This document shows positions 1 through 64,000 of a stretch of 64,000 nt of DNA, one piece after another. The notes below the pieces were generated by a model. The model was not told the DNA's origin and searched no databases. It saw only the letters and a program-made list of their open reading frames with translations. The stretch is from a virus, in the IMG/VR virus record IMGVR_UViG_3300025168_000039, positions 1 to 64,000 of that record. The stretch is one strand, 5' to 3'. Each line of letters begins with the position of its first letter. Position 1 is the stretch's first letter. The translations under genes and the position numbers were made by a program.

Positions 1-1366
1 TAAGAGAAACTAATCCACCCTGTCGAAGAGATGCTACATTCTCTTCTTTATTCATATTAGCAACGGAAGCTAACCCACCAAAGTCAACAACTTCTGTACC
101 ACCAACCTCTGATACAAGTTCAGGATATTTTTCTTTAACTTCATTAGACATAGGACCAACAACTTTAGGATAAGTTTTAGGGTCATCTTTATATCTAAAC
201 GAATACATTGCTAAACCAGTAGCATCATCCATCCCTATTTTTTTAACATCTGTTTTTTCTCTAGGATCACTCTGTCCCATCGCACCAGCAGCCGATCCTA
301 ATGCTCCTATAAGTCCTGCAGTTTGTTGAAGATAAGTTGGTTGTGCTTGTCCTGGTCCTCTATTTGTAGTTGTACCGGCTGCACCTAATGCACCTTGAGT
401 AGGCTGAATAAACTGAGAGTACTGTTGAAGTGTAGCTTCTGGGAAAGTTCTTTCTTCTAAAAACTTTCTTTGTGTTATATCTAATTCAGCTTGGCTTTGT
501 CCTCTACGTGCTGCACCAACTGCTTCTAAACGTGCAAGCTCTTGTGCAGTCCCACTAGGTGCAACTTCTGCAAGTTGAGTAAGACTACGAGCAGCACCTA
601 ATCTACTCTCTTGTTGCGCTTGCGCTTGTTCCACTGCTTGTTTAAATGCTTGTCCTAAACCTGCAGTTCTTATATCGGTAATACCCTGCTCTAAATTACG
701 ACGGCGTTCTGCTTCTAGAATACCTTGCCTACTACCTCCAAATGCACCAGCCTTAACTGACTGTGCAGCTAATTCTTGTTCCTCTATGTCTCCTGCTCTC
801 CTACGCTCACGCTCTGCTATATCAATAACTTGAGAAGCATAAGGATTCATAAACCTTGAAATATCTGCATCAGTAGTTCCTAGACCAGCTAGTCCTGCAA
901 ACTGTGCAGCGGGTGTAGCAAAAGCTTGAGTTTGTCCTACTACATCAGAAGTAAGATCAAATGCTCTTTCTTGTTCTGTAGTAAAGTCAGCTATCTCTTG
1001 ACCCGTAAAAGGAACATAACCTTCTCCTTTACGAGTTTTATAAATGTCTTGTGCTTCAGAAAGAACTTCTTTAACATAAGGTTTTAATTCTTCAGGTATT
1101 TCTTTTGTTTGTACTGATGTTGTTTGAACAGGAGGAGGTGGGGGAGGTGAACCAAAGAACTGAACACACTTAGTATTTTCGTTTATCGTTCCTGCGCCAC
1201 CCATAGAACGAAGAACATCCATCTCATGTTTATTAACGTGAGCAAGTTCAGTATCTCCACATACGCCTTTACCAGATAAATCCTCATACAAGAAGTTGTA
1301 TAAGAATACTTTCTCCTCATTAGAGAAGTCAGACAAGACTTTGTTAAATTTATTTTTCATGCTCAT
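1..1366 (-). CDS. Virion/tail protein with S74-like chaperone domain, 3' end cut by window
   Basis: The gene starts with ATG at 1366 and runs off the left edge (455 codons visible). The N-terminus carries a GDTELAHV motif followed by a Met-Gly-Gly-rich turn and a proline run. The middle is Ala/Gln/Arg-rich and probably helical. At about residues 360-420 there is a SDPREKTDV stretch followed by YSFRYK and PKVVGPM, the pattern of peptidase S74 intramolecular chaperone domains (Ser-Asp then Lys). It is a homologue of the gene at 51951-54299, which lacks this S74-like part. It lies two bases after the GNAT-fold gene. I infer a virion or tail-tip protein; whether it self-cleaves is unknown. Confidence 0.7.
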   Translation of the reverse strand, partial: MSMKNKFNKVLSDFSNEEKVFLYNFLYEDLSGKGVCGDTELAHVNKHEMDVLRSMGGAGTINENTKCVQFFGSPPPPPPVQTTSVQTKEIPEELKPYVKEVLSEAQDIYKTRKGEGYVPFTGQEIADFTTEQERAFDLTSDVVGQTQAFATPAAQFAGLAGLGTTDADISRFMNPYASQVIDIAERERRRAGDIEEQELAAQSVKAGAFGGSRQGILEAERRRNLEQGITDIRTAGLGQAFKQAVEQAQAQQESRLGAARSLTQLAEVAPSGTAQELARLEAVGAARRGQSQAELDITQRKFLEERTFPEATLQQYSQFIQPTQGALGAAGTTTNRGPGQAQPTYLQQTAGLIGALGSAAGAMGQSDPREKTDVKKIGMDDATGLAMYSFRYKDDPKTYPKVVGPMSNEVKEKYPELVSEVGGTEVVDFGGLASVANMNKEENVASLRQGGLVSL

Positions 1367-1368
1367 TG

Positions 1369-1797
1369 TTATAGTTCCTTAGTTAATACGGTGGCGTATT
1401 TTTTATAATTAAATTTCTCTAACTTTCTTTTCCAACCATCTCTTGCAATTATTTTAATATGCTTTACATTATTTTGTTTTGCATATTTAACAATGTCAGA
1501 GTTATCAGACACACAATAGTCTAACCATTTGCTTATCGTCCCTGTCTTCGCACCTACTAAACAGATAGTAAGAACATTATAATTAGGATATTTATCAAGT
1601 TGGGTTGTTGCAGCGACAACAATTCCATTCTCTTCATTAAGACCAACCCACAACGCCATTACTTCTGTTACTAATAAATTATAAATATCTTCTAAGTTGT
1701 ACTCTCCATGACTTCTCTCTAATGGTTTAGCTAGTAAATCTTTTACATGCGGCCATGTAACTTCTATACAGTTTGACCTTATCTTTGTAACTTCCAT
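1369..1797 (-). CDS. GNAT-fold internal virion protein (T7 gp13-like)
   Basis: 142 aa. The sequence reads as the small GNAT-like family found in T7-type and marine podoviruses: a VTWPHV start, an ALWVGLNEEN strand-turn, and a conserved ending with ARDGWKR and TVLTKEL. In T7 the equivalent (gp13) is an internal virion assembly protein. A homologue is at 54301-54729, with the same ending (ARDGW, TVITREL). Both copies sit directly between the lysozyme-bearing protein (or a neighbour) and the large virion protein, which supports a virion role. Enzymatic acetyl transfer is not shown by the sequence. Confidence 0.7.
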   Translation of the reverse strand: MEVTKIRSNCIEVTWPHVKDLLAKPLERSHGEYNLEDIYNLLVTEVMALWVGLNEENGIVVAATTQLDKYPNYNVLTICLVGAKTGTISKWLDYCVSDNSDIVKYAKQNNVKHIKIIARDGWKRKLEKFNYKKYATVLTKEL

Positions 1798-3111
1798 TTA
1801 AGCTATCGAACTTAGTCCTTTCTCTGCATCAATTTCTTTTTGTTGCTCTTCTCTTCCAAATGCTTCTTTGCGAACATCTGTTAGAAAATCATCTAACTCA
1901 TCTGCACCAGCATCAGAAGAACCATTACCAAGCATAGACACTACATCAGCAGGTATAACATATTCATCTTTACTAAGAAGAGCAAAGTCAGGATTACCGC
2001 CTTCTACTCGGAAAGGTATTTCATCAGACATACCATCACCCTTTCCTTCTACTTGACCCTCAAAGTATTCTCCTACATCCCCGCCTTCTTGGAATCCTAA
2101 AAATTCTTTAACTTTAACACCATAAGATTTAATAGTATCTAGAATATCTCCATCAGAGTAATCTTTTAATTCTTCTGAGACTGCTTCCATTCTAGGTCTA
2201 ATTCCTGGCCTACCTCTTGCCACTGCCTTTCTATATTCGTCGTGATCTAAAAATTCTTTAGAGGCTTTATCAAATTTTCCTTGATTAATTAATCTTATAG
2301 TGTCAGTGCTTCCACCTAAACTTCCTCTAAACCATTCTCCTAATAAAGATACCTGTAAATCTTCTGGAAAAGAATCGAATTTTGGAATCCTTCTTCTAAT
2401 TTGAGGCAGTCTGTCTTTAATATCTTTTCTTAATAAAGTATCTGCTTCTTCTTCTGTTATTGTCTGTCCTGATTTTACATTAGCACTTGCGTGACCATGA
2501 CCTATGGTTAATCTATCACCTTTTGTAGGAATTTTTGCTGTTAGTAACAAACCTTCTTCATCTTTTAAAAAGTCTACAAATGGTTCTATGTTTTCATTTT
2601 CTATCCTGCCGCCTTCTTGCATAGGCATCATACTAGCTAATCCCTCTTGAGGAGCTACTTCACTGACTTGGATTTCTTCTTGCGCTTGAACCGGCCTATC
2701 CATTGGCATAGGCATTGCTGGCATAACTGTTCTAGTTCTATCGCGAAGTGATCCTGCCATACTTTTAACATCATCTAGATTTTCCTTTTCAGATTCTGCT
2801 TCTACACGTTTGTCTATCATGTTAGCTGCTTCACTACCCGCACCAAAAGCAGCCAGTGCTGCAGCAAATGGTCCTGTCTTCTGTGGGTTAGCCATAGCAT
2901 ACTGACCAGCTATATTAGTTACTTGACCAACAGCATCAGCAGGACTAAAGCCTACTGGCATACCTGTACCCATATCTACTTCTTGTTGACCTAAACTTTG
3001 TAAACCAGCTTGAGGAGAAGGCGTCTGCATTCGTTGTACTTCAGCAGGAGGACGTTGAGCAGCCTCACGTAAAACTTCTATTTCTGCCAGCTTATCTAAA
3101 CCGTCAATCAT
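1798..3111 (-). CDS. Virion-associated lysozyme (GH24 domain) with DEYVIPAD C-terminal module
   Basis: About 437 aa. I choose ATG 3111 rather than 3120, because a GGAG box touches the first ATG but lies 9 nt before the second, which also forms a TAATG overlap with the previous gene. Residues ~175-317 match T4-type lysozymes (GH24): a DEEG catalytic Glu region, then GDRLTIGHGH with the Asp/Thr pair. This should cleave peptidoglycan glycan strands during DNA entry or release. The last ~80 residues carry a GDGMSDEIPF then DEYVIPADVV module, shared with the 55429-57654 protein, whose lytic domain is of another family. The N-terminal half is low-complexity, Met/Pro/Gln-rich. Confidence 0.8.
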   Translation of the reverse strand: MIDGLDKLAEIEVLREAAQRPPAEVQRMQTPSPQAGLQSLGQQEVDMGTGMPVGFSPADAVGQVTNIAGQYAMANPQKTGPFAAALAAFGAGSEAANMIDKRVEAESEKENLDDVKSMAGSLRDRTRTVMPAMPMPMDRPVQAQEEIQVSEVAPQEGLASMMPMQEGGRIENENIEPFVDFLKDEEGLLLTAKIPTKGDRLTIGHGHASANVKSGQTITEEEADTLLRKDIKDRLPQIRRRIPKFDSFPEDLQVSLLGEWFRGSLGGSTDTIRLINQGKFDKASKEFLDHDEYRKAVARGRPGIRPRMEAVSEELKDYSDGDILDTIKSYGVKVKEFLGFQEGGDVGEYFEGQVEGKGDGMSDEIPFRVEGGNPDFALLSKDEYVIPADVVSMLGNGSSDAGADELDDFLTDVRKEAFGREEQQKEIDAEKGLSSIA

Positions 3112-3326
3112 TATAAGCATCTCCTAATATCCATGTAGTTAGACTGTATCTTAGTCATATCTGCATGTAATGTATTTTCTTTATTATACAGCGAACCTTT
3201 TGAATATGCCATACCTTCAGCCTTGGTTGCTCCAAAAAAATCAGGCGGTTGTACTATACCTTTATTTACATTCTCAATAAATGTATTCTGATTTATTATC
3301 TCTAAAACTTTTTTATAATCGTGCAT
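3111..3326 (-). CDS. Small hypothetical protein in tail module A
   Basis: 71 aa, not recognised. It overlaps the stop and start codons of its neighbours, so it is translated within the late operon. It contains a PPDFFGATK stretch and no membrane segment. Module B has no counterpart: there the 91-aa homologue of the upstream gene is followed by a ~58-nt gap instead. Real by its position and tight spacing; function unknown. Confidence 0.6.
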   Translation of the reverse strand: MHDYKKVLEIINQNTFIENVNKGIVQPPDFFGATKAEGMAYSKGSLYNKENTLHADMTKIQSNYMDIRRCL

Positions 3327-3592
3327 TAGTTAAAGTCCACCCAACTATTACCTACATAACCTCTAAACTTACTTGCGCTTACACAGAAAGCAATATCTCC
3401 ACTTGCAGGTCTACCTATTTCTGTTACCGTAGTCACACTAAATATCTTAGTAGCTGGCGTAGAGTCTACCTCTACATCCCTTGATTCTAAAAGAAACTTT
3501 AGTTCACCAGCATAAGATATAAGAGTATTGTATACTTCAGTTAAATCTTCTGTTGATTGATACTTAGGTAGTTCTGGGTAAAGGAAAGACAT
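3326..3592 (-). CDS. Conserved small tail protein (copy A)
   Basis: 88 aa, homologous to the 91-aa protein at 57713-57988. Both begin MSF.YP, share LKFLLESRD or IKFLLESRD, then EIGRPASGD, and end in a G(Y)VG..WV.FN strand. The N-terminal half looks helical and the C-terminal half beta. It overlaps the start of the gp10-like tail gene by one base. Found in the same place in both modules, so most likely a tail or connector accessory protein; no enzymatic motif is seen. Confidence 0.65.
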   Translation of the reverse strand: MSFLYPELPKYQSTEDLTEVYNTLISYAGELKFLLESRDVEVDSTPATKIFSVTTVTEIGRPASGDIAFCVSASKFRGYVGNSWVDFN

Positions 3593-5460
3593 TACCGTTT
3601 ACCATCTCGTTGGACAGCCATACGAACACTACCCCATCTCCATGAAGTATTGAAACTATTACAAGAAACTCTTACGTTTGCTTGTCTACCTCTACCTCTG
3701 AAGTCTATCTTCTTTGTCCCTGAATTAATTTCAAACGGTCCTTTCTCAACCTCACTAGCAGCAGGAAACTCTTTAAAGTTAACAGACATATTTAGATCAC
3801 CTTGATTTATAGTATAGTCAGGAATAATCCTATCTGCAAAAAGTAAATCATTACCATCTTCTATATCAAAGTCTGCTGACTGTAAGAAGGAAGACAAAGC
3901 TACTCCATCTCCTGTAAACACTGATACAGGTTCATTATCCCAGATATGAGGTGTTGCTCCTGCAGATACCTTTCCTGTTGCTATGGTGTTAGTAAATACC
4001 GTAGCATCTTTAAAGGTTGTATAGAAACTAGTTCCAAATGCCCAGGTATTTTCTTCATAGTTATATAAAACATAAGCGTCAGGTTCTAATGAATTTTCTG
4101 TGGGATAGAACCAAATAATTTCATGAAACTCTGAGTTTACTGCAGCGTATACTTTATCTCCCTGTGTCGAGTTAAAGTCATCATATACATATCTACGAAC
4201 CGTACAATCTAGTTTATCTATTCTACCATCAAATCTATAGAAGTTATTATCCCCCATCCAATAAGAAATACCATCTACGTTAATAGCTCCATGTTGACCT
4301 ACTAACCCACAGTTAGTTCCTAGTTGTGATAAGGAAAATATGAATGGTGGACCAACATACTGTAAAGAGTATAAGGCTTGATCAGACCAAACATGAATTG
4401 TATTACGCGATCTAATACCGCCTTTAAGAGTTGTTCCGTCTACTACTTGTAACTCACCTGATGTAGAAGAAACTGATGGCGTCCAGTTAGTAAAGTCTTC
4501 TTGGTCTGACCATCTAATTAACAAAGGATTAAAAGCACTACCAGAAAACTCATTTGTTCCAAAAGCAATGACATGTCTATCATTAGGAGACACAACAATA
4601 CTGTTAATACTAACAGGAGCAGTAGTTACAATAGCTGCTCTTACTGGTGAAGTACTTGCATTAGCATCCCAGTGTAGTAAATTACCGCCTCTACGAACAG
4701 CTAATAAATCTTCTCCAAAGTTATCTAATGACCACTGACTAGCAGCAAAGACTATATCCGAAGCTGTAGAAGGTTTATTCCATGCTCTTTCTCCTGATGT
4801 AGATACACCAGCATTGTATACTCCTGCACTATAACCTAAACCTTGAATGTTATCACTCTGTCCTGTTCTTAAAAGAAAGTTAACTGTTCCTGTACCAGCA
4901 CTTGTACTTGTAGCTGTTGCTACACTTGTAGTACTAATAAGAAAACGATTAGTTCCACTTGTACTAACTGCTCTAAATACAGGTCCACCAAAACTACTTG
5001 CAGCAAAATTAGTACTAGCGAAGTTTCTTATAGATGCACTAGTAAAGAAAATAAAATCATTTACTGAAACACCGTTAGCATTAAGACTAACTGCAATTTT
5101 ATTAGAACCTGAAATAGTTCCTAACTTACCTATTGTTCCATCTGTCCCTACAGTTACTGTACTTACAATAGGAGTTATGTCATGTAAAACATCACTGGCA
5201 AGAAGATATAGTTTTTGTTCTGTACCAAAAGACAAAAGTTTTTCTGTATTATTATTCTGCCAAGTAAGTAAATCTCTTCCTGTACCATCAAAGGTAGTAG
5301 ACAAATGTTTTTGATAACCACGTAAATTTTCTGGTTTACCTGCTCTAAAACGTACACGATCACAATCATACCAAGAACCACCCTCAGAGTATTCTGTAGA
5401 CTCTCTGTGTATTCCAGGTCTAAGACTAAATTTAAATAAGTTTGCTGATGTACTTGCCAT
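3592..5460 (-). CDS. Large tail protein, gp10-like (copy A)
   Basis: 622 aa, beta-rich with repeated short blocks, of the kind annotated in marine podoviruses as a P22 gp10-like tail or DNA-stabilisation protein. Visible conserved blocks include RPGIHRESTEYSEG near the N-terminus, CDRVRFRAGKPENLRGYQK, SPNDRHVIAFGT, RWSDQEDF, FIFSLSQLGTNCGLVG and a terminal SWRWGSVR. The 628-aa homologue at 57988-59874 matches these over its whole length. I infer a multimeric tail hub or plug protein. It sits between the 88-aa protein and an N-terminally conserved fibre-type protein. Confidence 0.75.
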   Translation of the reverse strand: MASTSANLFKFSLRPGIHRESTEYSEGGSWYDCDRVRFRAGKPENLRGYQKHLSTTFDGTGRDLLTWQNNNTEKLLSFGTEQKLYLLASDVLHDITPIVSTVTVGTDGTIGKLGTISGSNKIAVSLNANGVSVNDFIFFTSASIRNFASTNFAASSFGGPVFRAVSTSGTNRFLISTTSVATATSTSAGTGTVNFLLRTGQSDNIQGLGYSAGVYNAGVSTSGERAWNKPSTASDIVFAASQWSLDNFGEDLLAVRRGGNLLHWDANASTSPVRAAIVTTAPVSINSIVVSPNDRHVIAFGTNEFSGSAFNPLLIRWSDQEDFTNWTPSVSSTSGELQVVDGTTLKGGIRSRNTIHVWSDQALYSLQYVGPPFIFSLSQLGTNCGLVGQHGAINVDGISYWMGDNNFYRFDGRIDKLDCTVRRYVYDDFNSTQGDKVYAAVNSEFHEIIWFYPTENSLEPDAYVLYNYEENTWAFGTSFYTTFKDATVFTNTIATGKVSAGATPHIWDNEPVSVFTGDGVALSSFLQSADFDIEDGNDLLFADRIIPDYTINQGDLNMSVNFKEFPAASEVEKGPFEINSGTKKIDFRGRGRQANVRVSCNSFNTSWRWGSVRMAVQRDGKR

Positions 5461-5464: not shown

Positions 5465-6664
5465 TTATGGGGTATACTCTGTTATTTTAATATGCGACAT
5501 TGCAACACCATAATAAGGATCAGCGCCAGACACTAATCCATTAACTATACAAGTACCACCTTGAGCATTACCTATATGTACTTGAAAAGTTTTTTGAGAT
5601 GTGGCTCCTGCTGTAACTCTAACTCTTGCTACTAATGTAGATTGAGATGCTGCTCCAGCTTCAAAACTAAGACTACCACCTATTGCATTAGATACAGATG
5701 CATCAAATATAGCTATTCCTCTATTAGTATTATCACTAGCTATTCTTACCAACATTTCTACTTCAATAAGTAAAATATTGCTTGCAGATTGAGGTGTTAT
5801 AGTAATATCTAAAGCACTAACTCTATTACCTTCAGATAGTTGAGCAGGTGTACCCTCTTCAGGAAGAGCAGTATTCCCTACACCAACAACAGAAACCATA
5901 TCAACTGCTGTAACTTGAGCTACTAAATTAGTTGAGTTTGACCATTCAGGATTAGCACTTGAACCTTTAGTCTGCAAGAACTGACCGCTTGTACCTGCAG
6001 GAAGTCTTGCAATATTGCTTCCAGCATAATAATAAACATCTCCTTGAGCATCACTTCCAAAACTAAGTTTATTACCTAAACCATCAAATGCAGAAGCAGA
6101 TACTGTACCTGAAAATCTACCTGATACAGCAGATATAGAAGTGGTATGTATAGTAGTTGCAGATACAGTTGATGTTGTAATTTTAGTAGCATTAAGAACA
6201 CTAGTAGATACTGATGTAGCAGTAAGACTATTAGCGGTAAAAGAACTTACTGATGTTGGAAATGCAGTTTTATGTACATTAGTTCCATCAGTTGCTATCA
6301 TAACATTAGAACCTTGTTCTATTGTAATGGCTGTATTACCTGCAGTTTTAACTTTAAGAGCAAATGATCCAGATGTATTGTTTCTTACATAATACATCTT
6401 ATTAACAGAAGGAATAATAATAGAAGTTTCTGCGGTAAGTGTACCGTCAAAAGATAAGATAGCTTTACGTGATTGGTCTGTAGCACCATTAACCTGAGAA
6501 AGTGTTAAGGGCGTTGTTCCACTAACAGAGACTATTTGATATGCTGCAACCGCTTGATCAACTAGATCAATAACATTTGCATTGAGTATCGTTCCCCAAG
6601 AGTTAGGATTTTCTCCATCTCCTTGTTTCTCTAGTCTAATGTTTGTTGTAAATGTACTCGCCAT
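5465..6664 (-). CDS. Tail fibre/appendage protein (copy A)
   Basis: 399 aa. The N-terminal ~70 residues (TTNIRLEKQGDGENPNSWG, then VIDLVD.A.AAY) are a virion-anchoring domain common in marine phage fibres, and are nearly the same in the 324-aa protein at 59881-60855. After this come Ser/Thr/Ala-rich heptad-like repeats (TSVSTSVLN.TKITTS), typical of trimeric fibre shafts, then an unrelated C-terminal beta domain that probably binds the receptor. Function is inferred from this composition and from its place among tail genes. Confidence 0.7.
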   Translation of the reverse strand: MASTFTTNIRLEKQGDGENPNSWGTILNANVIDLVDQAVAAYQIVSVSGTTPLTLSQVNGATDQSRKAILSFDGTLTAETSIIIPSVNKMYYVRNNTSGSFALKVKTAGNTAITIEQGSNVMIATDGTNVHKTAFPTSVSSFTANSLTATSVSTSVLNATKITTSTVSATTIHTTSISAVSGRFSGTVSASAFDGLGNKLSFGSDAQGDVYYYAGSNIARLPAGTSGQFLQTKGSSANPEWSNSTNLVAQVTAVDMVSVVGVGNTALPEEGTPAQLSEGNRVSALDITITPQSASNILLIEVEMLVRIASDNTNRGIAIFDASVSNAIGGSLSFEAGAASQSTLVARVRVTAGATSQKTFQVHIGNAQGGTCIVNGLVSGADPYYGVAMSHIKITEYTP

Positions 6665-6665: not shown

Positions 6666-7046
6666 TTAAACTCCTAAGTGTGCTGTAGTCATAAACAAGA
6701 TATATCCTGTTTCTTCTAAACTTGTTTTAATTTTATAAGCTATTGCTTCTATCCCATAAATAACTTTAAATATATATATATCTTCAATAACTAGCCCTAT
6801 TAATTCTTCAGAATTTACGAAACATCTTTCTGATTTAGCCAGACTAAAAAACATAAGGTCTGCTTCTTTTTTAGATACTTCTAATGCCTGACCAATTCTT
6901 AATATTGCATCTTCATCTTCACAAAAACTTTTATATATTATAAAATCTTCAGACACAGGACTTTGTAAATGTTCTGCTTTTACAGGAAGAGACAAAAGAA
7001 AAACCTGTAAATAAAATATTGTAAAAACTATAATATATTTTAACAT
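6666..7046 (-). CDS. Secreted two-cysteine protein (copy A)
   Basis: 126 aa. The N-terminus has a Lys followed by a ~20-residue hydrophobic core and a VKA-EH cleavage site, a classical signal peptide. The mature part contains FCEDEDAI and later ERCFVN, which align with FCRSEEAI and GECVFN of the 60858-61196 protein; the two Cys could form a disulphide in the periplasm. It sits directly behind the fibre gene in both modules. An exported protein inside a late tail operon could act in lysis or superinfection exclusion; this is inference. Confidence 0.6.
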   Translation of the reverse strand: MLKYIIVFTIFYLQVFLLSLPVKAEHLQSPVSEDFIIYKSFCEDEDAILRIGQALEVSKKEADLMFFSLAKSERCFVNSEELIGLVIEDIYIFKVIYGIEAIAYKIKTSLEETGYILFMTTAHLGV

Positions 7047-7420: not shown

Positions 7421-8293
7421 TTATGCTGCCTGGAATTGATATCTAATTATAACTACGCCTGAACCGCCAGCACCACTAGCACTACTAGTAAAAAAAGCAC
7501 CACCACCACCGCCGCCGGTATTTACAGTCCCTGCTGTTCCAGGTCGAGAAGCATTTCTACCACCTGCACCACCACCACCAGCACCACCTGCGCCTGACAA
7601 GCCAGCACTGGCTCCACCACCGCCTCCTGCACGGGTAACACTTGACCCAGTAATTGAAGATGCTAAACCAGCGCCACCCGCACCGGCTGTTGGAGAACTT
7701 GACGCATCTTGTCCCGCAGCACCAGCACCACCTCCCCCAGGTGAATTACCATTACCGTCTAAACTATCTCCACCATCATTACCTTGTCCTGATGTAGCTG
7801 AACCTCCTGTTAAACCAGTCCCTGGACAGCAGCCTCCTCCTCCACCACCAGAGCCACCATCTTTACCATTAGAGTTGCTAGAATTACCAGATCCAGCTTC
7901 AGCACCGCCTCCACCGCCACCGTCCGATGTAATTGAAGAGAAGACGCTGTCTGATCCGTTATTCCCTTTTGTATTATTACTAGTTTGTGATGCACCACCA
8001 GCACCAACAGTAATGCTGTATGCTTGTTGAGCTACACTAAAACCAGTGGCTGTTCGGAAACCGCCAGCACCGCCGCCACCTCCATAATATCCTGCACCAC
8101 CTGAAGCGCCTCCAGCAACAACTAAGTATTGTACTACACCATCAGCCCCTAATTGTGTAATAGTAAATGTTCCACTAGAGTTAAAAGTATGTACTTTAAA
8201 ATTTCCATCCGTTGTTATTGTTCCACCAGTAGCTACAGTAAATGCAGCAGCTGAAGAAGAAATACCACCTTGTACTATAGGAAATAGTGACAT
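7421..8293 (-). CDS. Glycine-rich tail fibre/adhesin
   Basis: 290 aa. Residues ~1-75 form a beta domain (FKVHTFNSSGTFTI, then VQYLVVAGG) known from glycine-rich phage fibres. The rest is dominated by poly-Gly runs with Ser/Ala, and the C-terminus returns to a hydrophobic strand (GVVIIRYQF). Such polyglycine-II-like tips are receptor-binding in T4-like gp38 adhesins. A partial glycine-rich gene occupies the equivalent place at the right edge (63631-64000), with a different C-terminus. Confidence 0.7.
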   Translation of the reverse strand: MSLFPIVQGGISSSAAAFTVATGGTITTDGNFKVHTFNSSGTFTITQLGADGVVQYLVVAGGASGGAGYYGGGGGAGGFRTATGFSVAQQAYSITVGAGGASQTSNNTKGNNGSDSVFSSITSDGGGGGGAEAGSGNSSNSNGKDGGSGGGGGGCCPGTGLTGGSATSGQGNDGGDSLDGNGNSPGGGGAGAAGQDASSSPTAGAGGAGLASSITGSSVTRAGGGGGASAGLSGAGGAGGGGAGGRNASRPGTAGTVNTGGGGGGAFFTSSASGAGGSGVVIIRYQFQAA

Positions 8294-9781: not shown

Positions 9782-10059
9782 TATATTAGATTCCAAAATT
9801 TATCTGTGTCTTCCCATTTAGTATTGGCGTTTTGCCATTCAAGATTTCTATCTGAGTTAGACGGTGGACGGGGATTACGAATATTTGTATCATCTCTTAC
9901 ATCAGGTGCTTTATTCTGTGGATGGTTTTTTAAATCATATGCTCCATCAAAGTCAGTAGGACAAACAAGTAAACCATAACTGTTAAGTTTCATTACTCTA
10001 TGTGGGTAGACAAAACCACACATATCACATACAGCTTTGGCATTCTTATTACTCGCCAT
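9781..10059 (-). CDS. Small zinc-ribbon-like protein
   Basis: 92 aa. The N-terminal half has CDMCGF, then a lone CPTDFDGAYDL about 18 residues later, so three Cys plus a His are possible metal ligands. The Asn/Pro-rich remainder has an NPRPPSNSDRNLEWQ stretch. The same type of protein is common beside adaptor genes in marine podoviruses. It lies between the adaptor gene and the fibre gene with almost no spacing. Role unknown, probably virion assembly. Confidence 0.6.
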   Translation of the reverse strand: MASNKNAKAVCDMCGFVYPHRVMKLNSYGLLVCPTDFDGAYDLKNHPQNKAPDVRDDTNIRNPRPPSNSDRNLEWQNANTKWEDTDKFWNLI

Positions 10060-12258: not shown

Positions 12259-12266
12259 GCTATAAC

Positions 12267-35060: not shown

Positions 35061-35082
35061 ATTTAATTATAAGGAGAAATAC

Positions 35083-41536: not shown

Positions 41537-41537
41537 C

Positions 41538-54299: not shown

Positions 54300-54300
54300 T

Positions 54301-54729
54301 CTATAGTTCCCTCGTAATAACTGTTGTATATTTTTTAAAATCATATTTAGGTGTAAACTTTAACCAGCCATCTCTAGCATATCCTTCAAGTCTTTTTACA
54401 CCTTGTTCTCTTGCAAACTTAATAATAGGAGAATCTTCACTCATTCCATAATCAAACCATTTATGAAGTGTGTGAGACTTCGTTCCAATGTAAGGCATTG
54501 CTAAAACTTTATACTGTGGAAAAGTAATAAGTTGTGTTATGCAAATTCCTAAGATACCATCTTCTTCATCTGCACCTACCCAAAGTTGTAAGTAATCACC
54601 TAATAACTCTTTGTAGATATCATTTAAATCTTTTTCCCCTTGAGTTCTTTTTAAAGGTTTTTCTATAAACTCAACAACATGAGGCCATGTTACATCAACA
54701 CAGTTAGGTTCAATTTTTATTAACTTCAA
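54301..54729 (-). CDS. GNAT-fold internal virion protein (T7 gp13-like, copy B)
   Basis: 142 aa, the same length as 1369-1797 and homologous throughout (VDVTWPHV, LQLWVGADEEDG, ARDGWLKF, TVITREL). Its place in the operon is also the same. Probable virion assembly protein. Confidence 0.7.
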   Translation of the reverse strand: MKLIKIEPNCVDVTWPHVVEFIEKPLKRTQGEKDLNDIYKELLGDYLQLWVGADEEDGILGICITQLITFPQYKVLAMPYIGTKSHTLHKWFDYGMSEDSPIIKFAREQGVKRLEGYARDGWLKFTPKYDFKKYTTVITREL

Positions 54730-55428: not shown

Positions 55429-57654
55429 CTATGCTAAAAATGATTCTAAGCCCTGTTTAATAGGCTTCTGCTGTTTTTTATTTCCTGTTGCTTTATGTCT
55501 TATGTTTTTAACAAAACCATCTAACTTCTTTGCACCTGAAGTAGAAGACCCACTTCCTATCATAGCAACTGTATCTGCAGGTATAACATATTCATCTGGA
55601 CTTAATAAAGCCATATCAGGATTATCACCTTCTACTTCAAATAAAACTTGATCTGATTGTCCATCTCCAGGTCCAATTACTTTACCTTCGAAGTATTGTC
55701 CAATCCCTCCTCCTTTATTATAAAGTTCGACATCAGGAATCCGATGAAACATATTTAAACTTTCTTCCATTCGTCTTTCTATGTGAGGTACTCCAGGACG
55801 TAAAAAAAGATCTGATATAGCTTTAGCTCTATCTTCTACTGCTCCCATTCCTTTACCTAATAAAATTTTTCTTAGCCTTTGTCTATTTCCTGGACCAGCA
55901 TCATATGGAAGTACTCCTTCTCCTTCAGTACTAGTCATTTGTTCATGGGCATATTCCATTTGATTTTGTTCATTATTTGGTAATTTATTATCTTTTAGAT
56001 ATCTTTTATAATCTTTCTGTCTACCTTGTGTAAATTGAAACAAGCCCAGACCTTGATTTAATCCTTTTTTCTTTCCACTCTCTCTTTGAGTACCTTTAAA
56101 GGTAGGTGCCTCAACTGCTATATTACCCATAATAGCAGCTATGCTTTCACTAGGATACTTTTTTTCTTTATAAAAATCATAAACTACTTTTTGTTTAGGA
56201 GTAAAAGAATTTTTTTTTGAGCCATTGCGGGGAGTACCCCCATTAGCAAGGCCAATAAGACCACCTTTATTAAACCCGAAATCTGCTCCAACATTAAAAC
56301 CATCTCCTCCTTGACCATAAGGTGTAGCGATAGCTCCAGGGTCTTGATTTACCTGTCCTACCATAGCATTTAATGTTGCTCCACCTACTGCATCCGAAAT
56401 AAATTTATCAACTTCCGATGCTGCTTTCTTCTTCTGTAAAATTTCTTCTTCTTTTCTTTTATTTTCTGAATCAACCGTTTCTTCTTCGACAACTGTATCG
56501 GTTTCTTCTACAGCCACTTCACCTCCTTCAGCTAATGTAACTGTATCATCATCAACATATCTAAATGGTGTTAAGCCTTGGCTAATCCCACCTTCTAAAG
56601 CAAGTCTAGTATAATCTTCTTGTGTAAAACCTTCTTGAGTAGGTTCACCACCTTCTAGGCGTAAAGGTCTACGAGTATATGTATCTTCTAATGCAGCTAA
56701 ACCTCCATCTGCATTAGGATCAAATTCTGGAGGAGTCATCACAGCTTCCATCGCACCAAATGCTAGAGGAGTATAGGTTGATGGTCTTTGCAGTAATGCA
56801 CCTGCCATTTGAGTAGTTGTTAGTGGTGCCCCACCCGCTTGTTCTAAAGCTTTTTGAGCAGCCACCGCACCTTTTATGCCAAAGTCTCTAACAAATGTTG
56901 TTGCTGGAATATTTTGACCAGCAGCAAATGGGGCAGCATAGGCGACTCCTGATTGTTTAGCTATTTCTGCAGTAACAGGAACCGTTTGAAATCCTTGTGA
57001 TGCACCTGCCATTTGAGTAGTTGTTAGTGGTGCCTGACCCGCTGCCGGGAAAAAGGATGGTGATACTGGTCCCACAGATACTGGTCCCATGTTTGAAAGA
57101 GCCGTTCCAGCATTTGCTCCTGCAGAAGCAACATTAGTACCAGTTTGAAGTCCTTGTGAAGTTAGTGCCTGATTAGATGCCTGTTGTGCTGCTGCTGTAG
57201 AAGCACCTTCAACGCCAAGTCCTGCTTCTAATGCAGCCGAACTTGGACCCATCATACCTGTCATAACACCAGCGGTAGCACCAGATATTAAACCACCTAC
57301 AAGAGCATCAGTTGGTGATTGACCTGCCGCAAGTCCACCAGCAAATGAACCAACACCAGCACCAACACCAGCACCGGCAGCAGCACCAAAAGCACTACCT
57401 CCAAATGCTGTACCAAGACCCGGACCAAGCAATACAGTACCAGCAATCGCACCTACGGCTGGTAACAATGATCTAAAATTAAAAGCTTCTGGTAATCCCG
57501 TTTCTGGATTTACAGTTAGTTGGCCCATACTAGATAGACCAGCTAATTCATCTGGGCGCACATGCAACAGTTCTGTATCACCATACCGTCCTTGCGCAGC
57601 CATTAGCCCTGCTATGCCACTATACGGAGCCTCTTGATTCCTCATCGCTACCAT
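55429..57654 (-). CDS. Virion protein with phage tail-lysozyme domain
   Basis: 741 aa. N-terminus GDTELLHVRPDELAGLSSMG, then TVNPETGLPEAF resembles the N-terminus of 51951-54299. A Gly/Ala hydrophobic segment (~65-160) could insert in membranes. About 475-640: KQKVVYDFYKEKKYPSESIA, IMGNIAVEAPTF, GLGLFQFTQGRQKDY, the pattern of Phage_lysozyme2 tail lysozymes. The C-terminus GDGQSDQVLF, DEYVIPADTV, IGSGSSTSGAKKLDGF matches the end of 1798-3111, which has a GH24 lysozyme instead. Also a GGLIGLANGG motif as in the neighbour. Confidence 0.75.
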   Translation of the reverse strand: MVAMRNQEAPYSGIAGLMAAQGRYGDTELLHVRPDELAGLSSMGQLTVNPETGLPEAFNFRSLLPAVGAIAGTVLLGPGLGTAFGGSAFGAAAGAGVGAGVGSFAGGLAAGQSPTDALVGGLISGATAGVMTGMMGPSSAALEAGLGVEGASTAAAQQASNQALTSQGLQTGTNVASAGANAGTALSNMGPVSVGPVSPSFFPAAGQAPLTTTQMAGASQGFQTVPVTAEIAKQSGVAYAAPFAAGQNIPATTFVRDFGIKGAVAAQKALEQAGGAPLTTTQMAGALLQRPSTYTPLAFGAMEAVMTPPEFDPNADGGLAALEDTYTRRPLRLEGGEPTQEGFTQEDYTRLALEGGISQGLTPFRYVDDDTVTLAEGGEVAVEETDTVVEEETVDSENKRKEEEILQKKKAASEVDKFISDAVGGATLNAMVGQVNQDPGAIATPYGQGGDGFNVGADFGFNKGGLIGLANGGTPRNGSKKNSFTPKQKVVYDFYKEKKYPSESIAAIMGNIAVEAPTFKGTQRESGKKKGLNQGLGLFQFTQGRQKDYKRYLKDNKLPNNEQNQMEYAHEQMTSTEGEGVLPYDAGPGNRQRLRKILLGKGMGAVEDRAKAISDLFLRPGVPHIERRMEESLNMFHRIPDVELYNKGGGIGQYFEGKVIGPGDGQSDQVLFEVEGDNPDMALLSPDEYVIPADTVAMIGSGSSTSGAKKLDGFVKNIRHKATGNKKQQKPIKQGLESFLA

Positions 57655-57712
57655 TTATAATTCTCCAAGTTAGATTTGTATATTATACAATAAAAATAAG
57701 TTCAGTGCAAAA

Positions 57713-57988
57713 TTAATTAAAGTTTACCCAACCAGTACCGCCTACATATCCTTTAAACTTTCCAGTACTTGCGGAATATGCTACATCTCCACTTGCTGGT
57801 CTTCCTATTTCATTTACACTAACAACAGAATAAATTTTAGTTGATGGTGAAGATTCAATCTCTATATCTCTACTCTCTAATAAAAACTTTATCTCTGATG
57901 CCCATGAATTAATATCATTATATAGTTGACGTAATTCGTCATTTGTAATATTATAATTAACAGAGAAGTTAGGATAAGAAAAAGACAT
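57713..57988 (-). CDS. Conserved small tail protein (copy B)
   Basis: 91 aa, counterpart of 3326-3592 (IKFLLESRDIEIESSPSTKI, EIGRPASGDVAY). Overlaps the gp10-like gene by one base as in A. Confidence 0.65.
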   Translation of the reverse strand: MSFSYPNFSVNYNITNDELRQLYNDINSWASEIKFLLESRDIEIESSPSTKIYSVVSVNEIGRPASGDVAYSASTGKFKGYVGGTGWVNFN

Positions 57989-59874
57989 TACCTTTTACCT
58001 GCTGGTTGAATAGCTACTCGAACACTACCCCATTTCCAAGATGTATTTAAATCAGATGTTGATACTCTAAAATTAGCCTGTCTTCCTCTTGCTCTCATGT
58101 CAATTTTTTGTGTAGCATCTGTTATATCAAAGGGACCAATCTCTTTTGTAGTTCCTGCAGGATAATCTTTTATATTAATTGAAAATTTAATTGTACCCGT
58201 ATTAATATCATAATCAGGAATAATCTTATCAATAAACATAATATCATCACCATCACCTATATCGATATCAGCACTCTCAATAAATGATGTTAGTGGTTGA
58301 TTGTTACCAGAGAATACAGAAGTTGGTTCATTATACCAAATAAACTGTGGGTTAGTTGCTGAAACATTTCCAGTTACTGCTCCTGTAGCAATAGTGTTAA
58401 GAAATACTGAGTCATCAATAAAAGTTGTATAGAAGTTAGAACCATAGACCCAAGTATTTTCCATGTAGTTATATATTACATAACTATCTGGTTCATTAGA
58501 CCCAGACTTTGGATATAACCAAATGATCTCATGGAACTCTGAATTAAGACCAGCAAACACTTTAGATTTTTGAGTCATATTAAAATCGTCATATAGATAT
58601 CTACGAATAGTACAATCTAATTTTTTAACTGAACCATCGAACATAAAGAAGTCTGTGTCACCCATCCAATATGTTCTACCCCCTACATCAATAGCTGCAT
58701 GTGATCCTATCAAGCCACAGTTTGTACCGACTTGAGACATTCTAAATATAAAGGGAGGACCAACAAATTGCAGAGTATAAAGAGCATTATCTGTATAAAC
58801 TAGAATTGCATTACGTCCTCGTACACCACCAACAATTCTAGTACCATCAATAAGTTGAAGCTCACCTGATGTAGATGATACTGAAGGAATCCAGTTAGCA
58901 TAATCTTCTTGATCTGACCATCTTACAAGAAGAGGATTAAAGACTGATGTTGCAAACTCTTCTGTTCCAAGAGCAATCACATGACGATCATTAGGAGATA
59001 TAACAATACTATTAATTTTTGATGGTGCAGTACCCACAACAGAAGACCTAACCGGCGCTAAACTTGCATTAGCGTCCCAATGAATTAAGTTTCCTCCTTG
59101 TCTAGCAGCAAGTAAATCTTCACCAAAGTTATCTAAAGACCACTGTGTTCCTAAGAAAATAATGTTAGAAGATTCTGCTGGTTGATTCCAAGCTCTTTCT
59201 CCTGTCGCTGAAACACCCGCATTATATATACCTGCACCATATCCCAATCCTTGAATTGGATTTGATTGACCTGTAGCTAAAAGAAAGAAAGCAATACCTG
59301 AACCCTGATTTGATTCTGTACTAGCGGCTACACTAGTTACACTAATAAAAAAGTTATTTACTCCTTGAACACTTACTACTTCAAATGTAGGTCCACCAAA
59401 TGAAGATACAGAAAAATCTAGTCCGTTTGTGGTAAAACCGTTAATAGAAGTATTAGAAAACTCAACGTAATCTCCGACGTTTCTTCCATTATTATTAGAA
59501 CTAACCTCAATTAAAGGAGAGCCAGCAGCCGTATCAAAACTCCCTGCACTCCCTAAGTTACCAATACTAACTGTACTAACTACTGGTGTTATATCATAAG
59601 GATAATCATTATAAACAACATATAATTTACTTTCAGTACCATAACCTAAAAGTTTTTCTGTATTATTATTTGTCCAGGCAAGTAAATCTCTAGCAGTTCC
59701 GGTAAAAGAAGTATCAATAAATTTTTGATATCCTCTTAAATTTTCAGGCTTACCTTCTCGAAAGCGTACTCGATCTCCATCAAACCATTTACCTTCCTCA
59801 GAATACTGAGTAGACTCACGGTGAAATCCCGGCTTTAAATTTAATTTTTGTAATTTAGAAAGAGTAGAGGCCAT
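57988..59874 (-). CDS. Large tail protein, gp10-like (copy B)
   Basis: 628 aa, full-length homologue of 3592-5460 with similar blocks (KPGFHRESTQYSEEGKW, GDRVRFREGKPENLRGYQK, SPNDRHVIALGT, LDCTIRRYLYDDFN, SWKWGSVR). Divergence at DNA level is visible by eye, so this is a relative and not an identical duplication. Confidence 0.75.
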   Translation of the reverse strand: MASTLSKLQKLNLKPGFHRESTQYSEEGKWFDGDRVRFREGKPENLRGYQKFIDTSFTGTARDLLAWTNNNTEKLLGYGTESKLYVVYNDYPYDITPVVSTVSIGNLGSAGSFDTAAGSPLIEVSSNNNGRNVGDYVEFSNTSINGFTTNGLDFSVSSFGGPTFEVVSVQGVNNFFISVTSVAASTESNQGSGIAFFLLATGQSNPIQGLGYGAGIYNAGVSATGERAWNQPAESSNIIFLGTQWSLDNFGEDLLAARQGGNLIHWDANASLAPVRSSVVGTAPSKINSIVISPNDRHVIALGTEEFATSVFNPLLVRWSDQEDYANWIPSVSSTSGELQLIDGTRIVGGVRGRNAILVYTDNALYTLQFVGPPFIFRMSQVGTNCGLIGSHAAIDVGGRTYWMGDTDFFMFDGSVKKLDCTIRRYLYDDFNMTQKSKVFAGLNSEFHEIIWLYPKSGSNEPDSYVIYNYMENTWVYGSNFYTTFIDDSVFLNTIATGAVTGNVSATNPQFIWYNEPTSVFSGNNQPLTSFIESADIDIGDGDDIMFIDKIIPDYDINTGTIKFSINIKDYPAGTTKEIGPFDITDATQKIDMRARGRQANFRVSTSDLNTSWKWGSVRVAIQPAGKR

Positions 59875-59880
59875 ATGCTT

Positions 59881-60855
59881 TTATCCAAATGAAGAAACTA
59901 AAATCATATCAATAGCACTAACGCCTCGTACATTGTATACCAACATATCAACAGCACTAGCTACTGTAGACAATACAGGAACTTCTGCATCAGGGAAATT
60001 ATAACTATTCCCATAAGACAATGTTCTTGATCCAGTACCGTCTTGAAAAACATAAATAAATCCACTTTGTCCTGGCTGGGCATTAGCACCATTTCCAAGT
60101 GTTCTATTACCTGCTAAAGAAACAAAGAATGTTGTTGCTGTAGATAAGTCTAAAGCAATTGAAGCAGCATCTGTAAGTGTAACCGGAGGTATAACTAGCT
60201 GACCACTAAAAGTTGCTGTAGAAACAAACGTAGCAGGACCATTAACGCAGACATCTGCAGTAAATAATGCACTAGATACTTGCATTGAATTAGCAGCTAT
60301 TGAAGTTACAAATATATTTGTTGCTGAAACACTTGTTGCAAAACCAACAGCAGATGCAAAGGCAACTGCCTTATTAAAAGTATTTGCTTCAGTAAAAGTA
60401 TTTGCTACAGAGAGTTTTGCAAAACCTGTAGTTGTATCTGCAGTTAAATAATCTAAACCAAAAACAGATACAGTATCACATAAGAACATCTTTCTACTAC
60501 CAGCAGCAACAGTACTGCCTGTACCCGCTGCTGTTTTTAATGTAATAGCTGCAGAATTTTGTCTGGTTGTTTTATCATTAATAACATAACTCTTTGACTT
60601 TTGTGGAACAAGAACATTTAGACTAGCAGAGACTGTTCCTGAAAGTTCAAGAAAAGGACTGCGAGATTGATCTGTTGTTCCGTCATTAGCTGTTAGAGTT
60701 ACATCTGCACTAGATACAACAACTGTCGTATAAGCAGCAATAGCTTCGTCTACTAGATCAATAACATTTTGATTTAAAACTGTACCCCAGCTATTAGGAT
60801 TTTCTCCATCTCCCTGCTTCTCTAGTCTAATCCTAGTTGTGTAACTACTTACCAT
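59881..60855 (-). CDS. Tail fibre/appendage protein (copy B)
   Basis: 324 aa. N-terminal anchoring domain shared with 5465-6664 (TTRIRLEKQGDGENPNSWG, TDQSRSPFLELSG), Ser/Thr/Ala shaft, and an unrelated C-terminal domain (SIALDLSTATTFFVSLAGNR, GQSGFIYVFQDGTG). The swapped tip suggests a different receptor. Confidence 0.7.
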   Translation of the reverse strand: MVSSYTTRIRLEKQGDGENPNSWGTVLNQNVIDLVDEAIAAYTTVVVSSADVTLTANDGTTDQSRSPFLELSGTVSASLNVLVPQKSKSYVINDKTTRQNSAAITLKTAAGTGSTVAAGSRKMFLCDTVSVFGLDYLTADTTTGFAKLSVANTFTEANTFNKAVAFASAVGFATSVSATNIFVTSIAANSMQVSSALFTADVCVNGPATFVSTATFSGQLVIPPVTLTDAASIALDLSTATTFFVSLAGNRTLGNGANAQPGQSGFIYVFQDGTGSRTLSYGNSYNFPDAEVPVLSTVASAVDMLVYNVRGVSAIDMILVSSFG

Positions 60856-60857
60856 TC

Positions 60858-61196
60858 TTATATTCCTTTTTCATTCTCTAAAACTATTGTGTAAACTTCT
60901 ATACCTCCAAGAAGTAAAACCTTTCTAAGACTAAAAAGTCTTCCTTGTGTGTCTACAAAATTATTATACATTGTATTTGTTATTCCTGGAATAGGTTCTT
61001 CGTTAAATACACACTCACCTTCTATAAGATATTTTCTAAGAACATAGTGATAATCTTCTTCTGATACTGTTTGTGATTCTGCTATTGATACAATAGCTTC
61101 TTCAGAACGACAAAAATTCCAAATTAAAACATCATGATGTGCATTAGCAACAGAAGTTGTTAAGAATACCATTAAAAAAATTATATATTTTATCAT
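60858..61196 (-). CDS. Secreted two-cysteine protein (copy B)
   Basis: 112 aa from ATG 61196 (an upstream start reads into the AsnB-like gene). Signal peptide IKYIIFLMVFLTTSVANA with ANA-HH cleavage; mature NFCRSEEAI and GECVFN match copy A at 6666-7046. Probably periplasmic with one disulphide. Confidence 0.6.
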   Translation of the reverse strand: MIKYIIFLMVFLTTSVANAHHDVLIWNFCRSEEAIVSIAESQTVSEEDYHYVLRKYLIEGECVFNEEPIPGITNTMYNNFVDTQGRLFSLRKVLLLGGIEVYTIVLENEKGI

Positions 61197-61212
61197 TGTA
61201 ATCAGCTTTATA

Positions 61213-62919
61213 TTAGTTAATAAACTTTTGTAAAGAATCTCCATATTTATCTTTAAGTAGACTAGTATTAGTAGAAGTATCTCCTGCGTAAATAATATTA
61301 TTTTTATTATCTATTCCTAAAGAATGACCCCATCTAACTTTTAATGAACCAATTTTTAGTTTATTGTCTCTATAATCTTCATCAGATGTATAATCATATA
61401 TATAATCTTTTGCCGTAAACTTATAGCTTTTCAATGTATCTTTAAGTTTTTTATCAGGATTCATTACAGACCACTTTTGAAAATTATCTGTTCTAAAGAA
61501 ATGACGAACATTATTAATATTATTACTATTTTTAACCATAGCTAATGAACGATAAGATACTTCTTCCCATTTTAAATTAAAATTCCACCACCAAAATAAA
61601 TCTTTAATAGACGATATTGTATATGGACATTTAGAATTAAACAATTTGATATCCTCAATATCATTAGGATATTTATTTTTAATAAACTCATCTACTGTCA
61701 TTTTTAATATTTCAGGATGAGATATAAATCCTGATGATCCAAAAAGTTGATCACCACATTCTCCTGTAATTGTTAAACCTTTATTTAAATTATCCGCAAT
61801 ATGTCTTATAACTGGAGAATAAAAAGGTTTATCCATATAATATTTATTAGCATCTCTCTCTGTCATTAAGACTTCTTCTGTTTGAATTTTATCTTTAATA
61901 TAATTATTCCAAAATAAAGGATACTCTTCAATAGAATTTAAAGTATAGATAATTTTTAATTTATCATGCCAATCAGAAGGTTTACTTTTTAGTAAACTTA
62001 CCAGAGCTACTGTACTATCTATTCCTCCGCTCCAATATACTTTTAATTCTTTATCTTCATTCCAAAGCTCTACACCTTTTTCATCTGCTACTTCTGCAAA
62101 GGATTTTGTAAATCCTGTTGCATCAGGTATAGGACTTGCTTCTAATTTTAAGTTACTTGTTAAAGTATTTGTTCTATCATTTGGAGTCCAAAGACAATGA
62201 ATAGCTTCTCCGATTAAATCTAGTGTTGTTTTTTTATATTCTCCTGATCCAACTCTTAAAAAATCTGGACGAGCAATAATAAGTTTATCACCTAATATAT
62301 CTGTTGACTTATCTACTGAAGATGTATTTTCAAAATTAAATATACTTGTAAATTTATCTAAAACTTTAATGCTACAATCAATATCTAAATAATTAAACAC
62401 ATTTCTAATTTGTCCTACACCTACGGCAGTATGTAAAAGAACTGAACATTCTACACATTCCTCTTCAGGCACAGGATTAATAAATATATCTTGATCATTC
62501 AATATGTCTACACAAGTTTGCGGGTCAGAAGCATTTAAAATTTCTTGTCTTTTAGTTTTATATAATTCTTCAACAAATAATCTAGATGCATTTTTTTTAA
62601 ACTGATCTAATGCATCAGTAGCTTTATCTTCTACTGTATCTCCTAAAATAGTAGTCGCTTGATCTTTAGTTATTTCTGATCGAAGAAACTGTTCAACTTG
62701 TGTCATGCTCTTAGGCTCTGGAAAATACCAATTTATATTTCTTACATATTGATCATCAAATCTTTCTAACACAACTTTTTTAACAGTCGCTAAATCTTTC
62801 CACTGCTCTTCAAAAGCTGTCTTAGCTTCATTAAGAACCATAACTTTTAAACCAATATCAGAAGGTGACTTGTCACTTCCTGGTAAAGGATTGTCCCTTT
62901 TTTTTAATACTAGACTCAT
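61213..62919 (-). CDS. Asparagine-synthetase-like ATP pyrophosphatase
   Basis: 568 aa. SGGIDST at 297-303 is the PP-loop of the asparagine synthetase/N-type ATP pyrophosphatases, and GECGDQLFG at 386-394 the second AsnB-type motif. This would adenylate a carboxyl group and join it to an amine. There is no N-terminal Cys glutaminase domain; residues 1-290 are an unknown domain with a CVEC pair near 155. Relatives that lack or change the glutaminase include amide-forming cyclases. It sits inside the tail operon, beside a tiny secreted protein and a cupin. Substrate unknown. Confidence 0.75.
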   Translation of the reverse strand: MSLVLKKRDNPLPGSDKSPSDIGLKVMVLNEAKTAFEEQWKDLATVKKVVLERFDDQYVRNINWYFPEPKSMTQVEQFLRSEITKDQATTILGDTVEDKATDALDQFKKNASRLFVEELYKTKRQEILNASDPQTCVDILNDQDIFINPVPEEECVECSVLLHTAVGVGQIRNVFNYLDIDCSIKVLDKFTSIFNFENTSSVDKSTDILGDKLIIARPDFLRVGSGEYKKTTLDLIGEAIHCLWTPNDRTNTLTSNLKLEASPIPDATGFTKSFAEVADEKGVELWNEDKELKVYWSGGIDSTVALVSLLKSKPSDWHDKLKIIYTLNSIEEYPLFWNNYIKDKIQTEEVLMTERDANKYYMDKPFYSPVIRHIADNLNKGLTITGECGDQLFGSSGFISHPEILKMTVDEFIKNKYPNDIEDIKLFNSKCPYTISSIKDLFWWWNFNLKWEEVSYRSLAMVKNSNNINNVRHFFRTDNFQKWSVMNPDKKLKDTLKSYKFTAKDYIYDYTSDEDYRDNKLKIGSLKVRWGHSLGIDNKNNIIYAGDTSTNTSLLKDKYGDSLQKFIN

Positions 62920-63056
62920 TTTGTAAAACTTTCTTCCAGTTGATGAAGTTGAACTATTACTCTAACCTGTTCTGTAGAATATGCAAAACAACCATAAAAG
63001 GCAAAACACAAACCTAAAACTTTAAACGTATTTATTATATATTTTTTATACTGCAT
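62916..63056 (-). CDS. Tiny secreted peptide beside AsnB-like gene
   Basis: 46 aa: MQYKKYIINTFKVLGLCFAF is a signal-type hydrophobic start, YGCFA-YST a possible cleavage or lipobox-like site, and the remaining ~20 residues are polar (VRVIVQLHQLEESFTK). Start overlaps the cupin stop region and its stop overlaps the AsnB-like start (ATGA). Could be a substrate or an exclusion peptide; unproven. Confidence 0.5.
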   Translation of the reverse strand: MQYKKYIINTFKVLGLCFAFYGCFAYSTEQVRVIVQLHQLEESFTK

Positions 63057-63630
63057 GAGTTCCTAACATCATAGGATGGTTAAACTCGTCATTAGTACTA
63101 GACCATATATGCATTGGAACAACAATTAAATCTTGGTTATCTGTTTCAAAGTGATGTGGCTCCATAGCATCTAAGATTAAAGTTTTTCCTTCAATTAATT
63201 TATGTTTCTCTGTATTAGAACCTACACCTGAAACTGCTGTACCGCTTCCTGATAAAACATATACCACTCTATCTGTCGAATGAATATGATGTTTTTGTTC
63301 TGAACATCCGGCGGGTATCTTTAATAGTTGCATACAAGGATCACCAGATCGAATTGGAGGTAAAATATTGTTAGTGCTGCATCCATTAATATATGGTAGA
63401 TAAGTGTTTAAATTAATTTCAGCAGTTCTGTTTGGTGGTATATACCCGTATATAGTAATAATAACTCTACCAAAACATACGCCCCAATTTTTGACTGATA
63501 CACTTTCTTTATTTATAATCCATGCTGAACTATTTTTAGGTATTTTATATTCGTTTCCTGAAGTATCTACTTCGTAGTAGTATAAACTATTTTGTTTTGG
63601 AATGTAACTACGATTATTTAAAAATAACAT
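63046..63630 (-). CDS. Cupin-domain protein
   Basis: 194 aa. The C-terminal ~95 residues form a cupin: LLKIPAGCSEQKHHIH (metal His cluster), DRVVYVLSGSGTAV, then EGKTLILDAMEPHHFET and a closing VVPMHIWS strand. The N-terminal 100 residues are beta-rich and of unknown type. Cupins bind metal and act as dioxygenases, isomerases or sugar epimerases, or are virion proteins. It lies between the fibre gene and the secreted peptide/AsnB-like pair. Confidence 0.7.
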   Translation of the reverse strand: MLFLNNRSYIPKQNSLYYYEVDTSGNEYKIPKNSSAWIINKESVSVKNWGVCFGRVIITIYGYIPPNRTAEINLNTYLPYINGCSTNNILPPIRSGDPCMQLLKIPAGCSEQKHHIHSTDRVVYVLSGSGTAVSGVGSNTEKHKLIEGKTLILDAMEPHHFETDNQDLIVVPMHIWSSTNDEFNHPMMLGTHAV

Positions 63631-64000
63631 CTATGATGTAGCTCCAAAAACATTTCCACTATTTGTTACATTTACTGTTGCACCTGAATTTAATCTAACT
63701 GCTTTTCCTGCTGCTCCTCCTGATCCACCTGAGCCAGCGACTCTACAGTTTGCATTTCCACCAGGACCACTACCACCAGCGCCGCCATTACCTACATTAC
63801 CCCAAGTTCCCCCAGTTCCTCCTGTTGAGGCTCCACCTGAAGAACCACTAGTTGCACTATTTGTGGGAGGATCATTAATACTTGCACCAGCACCTCCATT
63901 ACCTCCTGTTAAATTAGTGCAATCACTACAACTCTGCGCTTCAGAATCATAGGTAGTACAACTACGGTAGCCACCACCACCACCGCCGCCTCCACCACCG
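63631..64000 (-). CDS. Glycine-rich tail fibre, 5' part beyond window
   Basis: 123 codons of the C-terminus are visible; the start lies right of the window. Long Gly runs, a CTTYDSEAQSCSDC segment with several Cys, and a closing GAAGKAVRLNSGATVNV plus NSGNVFGA end typical of glycine-rich phage fibre proteins. Same place in the operon as 7421-8293, but with a different C-terminal end. Confidence 0.7.
   Translation of the reverse strand, partial: GGGGGGGGGGYRSCTTYDSEAQSCSDCTNLTGGNGGAGASINDPPTNSATSGSSGGASTGGTGGTWGNVGNGGAGGSGPGGNANCRVAGSGGSGGAAGKAVRLNSGATVNVTNSGNVFGATS

Follow-up and report, generated by a model that had tools for sequence, protein, structure and literature searches.

A 106,894-bp IMG/VR record that very probably joins two pelagiphage-like genomes through a 491-bp segment

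Relation to HTVC023P-type pelagiphages and to known virome chimeras

Pelagiphages of the HTVC023P type belong to a marine group that is widespread; their circular maps measure some 55-60 kb, and the genomes of the group about 59 kb (PMC9599517). Virome assemblies commonly contain chimeras between related genomes (PMC3901335; PMC10563150), and the paper describing CheckV reported IMG/VR contigs that were more than twofold too long. Its authors mention chimeras of closely related viruses as an artefact that the tool might be adapted to detect, which implies that CheckV was then without this function (PMC8116208). The window analysed here is a stretch of 64,000 bp, representing bases 1-64,000 of the 106,894-bp record IMGVR_UViG_3300025168_000039; positions beyond 64,000 refer to that record. 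Judged by sequence comparison, the record is very probably an assembly chimera of two separate pelagiphage-like podoviruses, P and Q, misjoined through a segment R. The left part of P (1-33356) carries the genes for an S74 tail fibre, lysozyme, structural proteins, capsid, portal and TerL, followed by early genes up to thyX and the primase-helicase gene. It is followed by R (33357-33847, plus strand), 491 bp common to P and Q and repeated at 88081-88571, and by the first 30 kb of Q (33848-64000; thyX, primase-helicase, PolA, NrdJ, tRNA-Arg, TerS, tail fibres and structural proteins). The remainder of Q extends through to 88080, and the remainder of P, beyond the window, spans 88081/88572-106894.

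The nearest isolates are the pelagiphages HTVC027P and HTVC023P, with which P and Q share homologues of the adaptor and tail genes and a family A polymerase (PMC9599517). TerL, portal and capsid of P and Q are homologous to those of the HTVC023P type (39-50% amino acid identity; 39.5% for TerL, 43% for portal and 50% for capsid of HTVC027P), with the order of the late region kept. PolA shows weak similarity (24-25%) to that of HTVC023P-type phages. For most early genes of P and Q, the first 50 kb of HTVC027P offer no counterpart; the stretch 18395-18814 matches HTVC027P 31552-31860, inside a gene annotated as GroES, at 35% amino acid identity. When 7.7 kb of P served as the query in a distant-mode DNA search, neither HTVC023P nor HTVC027P was matched. 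By sequence, P and Q appear to belong to a separate, uncultured sister group of the HTVC023P type that occurs in many viromes and is represented by numerous IMG/VR contigs.

Like the virome chimeras described previously (PMC3901335; Phables, PMC10563150; CheckV, PMC8116208), the record would combine related phages from one sample, joined at a common repeat. It differs from the overlong IMG/VR contigs of the CheckV paper, in which the same genome is repeated, in that its two copies are ~65-70% identical, so that a k-mer redundancy test would miss the fusion. This exemplifies a failure mode in which the fused genomes are too unlike to look repeated and may therefore pass checks of size and k-mers.

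The doubled gene plan and its partition

All open reading frames of the record were compared with each other by blastp, which revealed nearly the whole phage gene plan twice. All hallmark genes and most others are paired with a single homologue in another part of it, in conserved order and orientation and mostly at a distance of 52-58 kb. Along the record, GC skew completes two full cycles, compared with one in single relatives.

The sequence-only reading had proposed that late genes at the left end of the window recur in the same order at its right end. For the genes at 1-7 kb, counterparts were indeed found at 52-61 kb, in the same order and with a spacing of 53-58 kb. The S74-chaperone tail protein of P (2-1366, minus strand; Peptidase_S74), truncated by the contig start, corresponds to Q 51951-54344 (44% amino acid identity over 375), and the gene at 1369-1797 to Q 54301-54729 (45%). 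The lysozyme-bearing structural protein (1798-3120, minus strand; Phage_lysozyme) matches Q 55429-57654 in its last ~97 aa only (56%). The gene at 3326-3592 pairs with Q 57713-57988 (57%), the 622-aa late protein (3592-5460, minus strand) with Q 57988-59874 (62%, E=0), the gene at 5465-6664 with Q 59881-60855 (44%, N-terminal part) and that at 6666-7046 with Q 60858-61244 (29%, weak). Seven of the suspected pairs were thus recovered, but the glycine-rich gene at 7421-8293, which had also been counted as doubled, has no homologue among all open reading frames of the record at E<=1e-3. Past this gene, the common order is resumed with 8294-9796 in P and 65185-67074 in Q. A structural protein of 500/629 aa contains internal repeats (8732-9541 in P, 65635-66289 in Q) that differ in copy number.

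The earlier description of TerL, portal and capsid (left) and of TerS, PolA and NrdJ (right) as single-copy genes holds inside the window and fails for the full record; they seemed unique because the window ends at 64,000 and cuts the record. Inspection of the sequence to the right of this position, as had been suggested, yielded the second copies of all six. The major capsid protein of P (15194-16138, minus strand; Phage_capsid_4 / phrog_371) has its counterpart in Q at 72801-73751 (65% amino acid identity), the portal (19008-21533, minus strand; phrog_1216) at 76753-79317 (60%) and the 539-aa TerL (21579-23198, minus strand; Terminase_6N, found twice in the record) at 79945-81510 (68%). Conversely, the family A DNA polymerase of Q (37251-38912, plus strand; DNA_pol_A) is matched in P at 88889-90613 (51%), its ribonucleotide reductase NrdJ (41508-43238, plus strand; Ribonuc_red_lgC) at 95861-97570 (74%) and its TerS (46656-47063, plus strand; Terminase_2) at 102297-102830 (55%).

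Pairwise comparison of the two copies by self-blastn gave DNA identities of mostly 65-72% (about 65-70% overall), in line with the previous view that they are homologous and clearly not identical. Higher values were reached in patches at 8263-8729 (82.6%) and 11948-12740 (89.4%, against 68246-69031). Near-identity within the record, according to self-blastn and an exact-repeat scan, is confined to 33357-33847 / 88081-88571, that is R, whose first base lies within the 33.2-33.6 kb interval in which a junction had been suspected.

On both sides of R, thyX and the primase-helicase gene are doubled within 7 kb (30431-33287 and 34163-36744). ThyX of P (30431-31168, plus strand; Thy1) is paired with Q 34163-34861, still inside the window, and the primase-helicase of P (31620-33287, plus strand; DnaB_C and Toprim) with Q 35083-36744 (57% amino acid identity), 2 kb past the join. 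This arrangement argues against one genome followed by a collinear one and fits a course along P to R, along Q from R to R, and then along P again. To test this course, a partition scan was performed in which, for each choice of two cuts, the homologous protein pairs falling inside one genome were counted while R was ignored. The minimum, 2 of 38 pairs, was obtained when the cuts fell within 32.5-34.5 kb and 88.0-89.75 kb. Of the pairs left inside one genome, one is a tandem repeat in Q (63631-65183) and the other a 41-aa stretch weakly similar to the R protein. A split into equal halves was rejected, since it leaves 6 internal pairs as opposed to 2 for the cut at R, placing the thyX and primase-helicase pairs in one half and a 2OG-oxygenase pair in the other.

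The 89% stretch at 11948-12740 / 68246-69031 was considered as a second join and discarded; relatives of P cross it unbroken and show the same 89% identity to Q. It harbours a module of two genes, for proteins of 103 aa and 157 aa (the latter DUF5872-like), which are 98% and 88% identical between P and Q. Where they match HTVC027P, they reach 72-77% amino acid identity, far exceeding TerL or capsid; the module is either strongly conserved or recently exchanged.

Cutting the record at R results in two single-copy genomes: Q, 33357-88080 (54,724 bp), and P, 88081 to the end plus 1-33356 (~53 kb). P consists of 52,170 bp and a gap that falls at the contig ends, among the variable tail-fibre genes. 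The gap measures roughly 0.9 kb, as estimated from a close relative (G002) in which the flanking matches lie 4,463 bp apart, compared with 3,595 bp present in the record.

Segment R and the occurrence of each genome alone

The two copies of R are identical at 490 of 491 positions (99.8%), with a single mismatch (33727 A / 88451 C). As a marker of origin, the mismatch reads C in one P contig (G014), which has several N in R, and both A and C in Q relatives. In its Q context, R starts within a 2OG-Fe(II) oxygenase gene and ends within the next gene. It encloses a Q-native 99-aa open reading frame (33490-33789, plus strand; second copy in P at 88214-88513) that matches no Pfam or PHROG family. 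In two relatives of Q (G015 and G016; 3300023196_000601 and 3300012953_001378), R is internal with Q sequence on both sides and is 84-86% identical, the flanks being 93-97% identical. In its P context, by contrast, R interrupts a small open reading frame that is intact, at 76 aa, in the 93% relative G002, and its insertion creates an in-frame hybrid reading frame (88515-88748) of 19 Q residues followed by the P remainder. The simple reading in which R forms a terminal repeat in both phages was dismissed, given that it is internal in G015 and G016 and that relatives of P are without it.

In other samples, two P contigs (3300001718_000095 and 3300001589_002222; 99.7-99.8% identity) enter R at the same base and terminate there, one at R+303 and the other at the last base of R. 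The boundary from P (left) to R is thus present in two further contigs, and that from R to P (right) in this record alone; a full P-R-P contig was not found among the contigs searched. The strain of P represented here presumably has R between its own flanks, and R would derive from an illegitimate transfer by which one P lineage recently received 491 bp of Q, at a spot that varies among relatives. This spot, between the primase-helicase and PolA genes (33287-33357), spans 0 to 1,032 bp in P-type relatives, most commonly ~4 bp, and in others 381 bp with one small open reading frame.

Each genome also occurs alone. For Q, this is shown by a 54,422-bp IMG/VR contig (G026, IMGVR_UViG_3300001450_000050) that is 99.98% identical to 33747-88177 and whose ends lie 101 bp and 97 bp inside R, presumably because reads of ~100 bp cannot cross a repeat that two genomes share, so that the assembler declines to choose. 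P-type genomes are represented by G002 (IMGVR_UViG_3300025543_000036; 54,081 bp), whose ends overlap by 32 bp, giving a 54,030-bp circle. This contig is ~93% identical to and collinear with P over most of 1-33 kb and 88.6-103 kb, which makes it a relative rather than the same strain, and it passes from position 33359 to position 88572 with zero bases between. Four further contigs (G027-G030) contain the uninterrupted P site. Among 51 distinct contigs in which PolA comes after a P-type primase-helicase gene at a distance of -1 to 1,032 bp, none contains the Q insert. The unit genomes of the group measure 51-55 kb, and the near-complete single genomes G002, G003, G004 and G026 are devoid of a second gene set. 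The record therefore shows a near-identical repeat at both crossing points, independent contigs break within this repeat, and the unit-length parents are found alone in other assemblies, Q as such and P through its 93% relative.

Origin of the join and other possibly fused contigs

The preferred explanation would proceed as follows. P and Q each have a circular map of ~53-55 kb with every gene present once; R belongs to the normal gene complement of Q, and the co-occurring P strain would hold a near-identical R inserted between PolA and the primase-helicase gene. In an assembly graph built from short reads, this segment would then collapse into a single node with two entries and two exits (a figure-eight), and the assembler could take a path in from P, out along Q, once round Q back to R and out along P, yielding P-R-Q-R-P. 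The evidence on R, on Q alone and on P-type genomes alone favours the option of a chimeric assembly with a junction at 33.2-33.6 kb, which the sequence-only reading had listed among several.

The most serious competitor is a real cointegrate, in which P and Q co-infected a cell and recombined at R, so that a true 107-kb molecule was sequenced; in a variant, P captured a whole terminally redundant Q molecule (R-Q-R). Campbell-type recombination at R yields exactly P-R-Q-R-P, a sequence identical to that of the chimera, P resumes without loss on either side of the Q insert, and the ends of R ignore the gene boundaries of Q, as an arbitrary terminal redundancy would. Even together, these two versions are nevertheless improbable. 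Relatives measure 51-55 kb, and a molecule of 107 kb would, judging from size, exceed the same head; moreover, Q and P-type genomes occur alone. The recurrence of the P-R boundary in two other samples indicates that it was inherited by something packageable, whereas a non-packageable dimer could hardly have passed it on, and chimeras of related genomes are frequent in virome assemblies (PMC3901335; PMC10563150). On these grounds, we infer that the crossing between P and Q arose in the assembly software rather than in a cell. A broader proposal, that P and Q formed a 107-kb heterodimer via R, itself recently moved between phages that are ~65-70% identical, and that such dimers feed the mosaic evolution of the group, is slightly less probable still.

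A stable natural phage with two diverged genome copies in one ~107-kb chromosome would take the record at face value. This is very improbable, because near-complete relatives are half as long and have one gene set, a near-identical R of 491 bp would be unexplained beside a 65-70% background, and the order is P, Q, P, with Q lying within P and also occurring alone. The natural large hybrid envisaged earlier is unlikely for the same reason, Q and close relatives of P being found on their own at unit length. Prophages of different strains lying in tandem on a bacterial chromosome would place two related phage genomes on a single contig, but this idea is unsupported and extremely improbable: one genome interrupts the other at R instead of lying side by side with it, no bacterial gene, attachment site or integrase is present among the annotated genes (not every open reading frame being annotated), and a host search of 84,980 bacterial and archaeal genomes retrieved no relative of the TerL of P.

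With the assembly chimera as the preferred reading, the doubled genome is, on present evidence, no real biological feature, and the record should be divided at R to give two genomes of a sparsely described group of marine phages, rather than being listed as a 107-kb phage or a genome duplication. The biological residue would be R, a 491-bp piece cut regardless of genes and apparently transferred from Q to the P strain recently.

Two other contigs show related irregularities. The 100-kb contig IMGVR_UViG_3300030329_001736 (G001) seems to comprise two phages; one, at ~44-100 kb, is a relative of P and Q, while the other, at 1-44 kb, is more distant and has its own polymerase, primase-helicase and thyX (38-44% amino acid identity to the first set). 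Unlike IMGVR_UViG_3300025168_000039, it is without a long identical repeat at a join. The 62.7-kb contig IMGVR_UViG_3300030109_000199 (G006) overruns its own circle of ~58.3 kb (1-4715 versus 57117-62686); the overrun consists of a divergent form of its own tail-fibre genes (85% and 39% amino acid identity) and looks like a path into a related strain.
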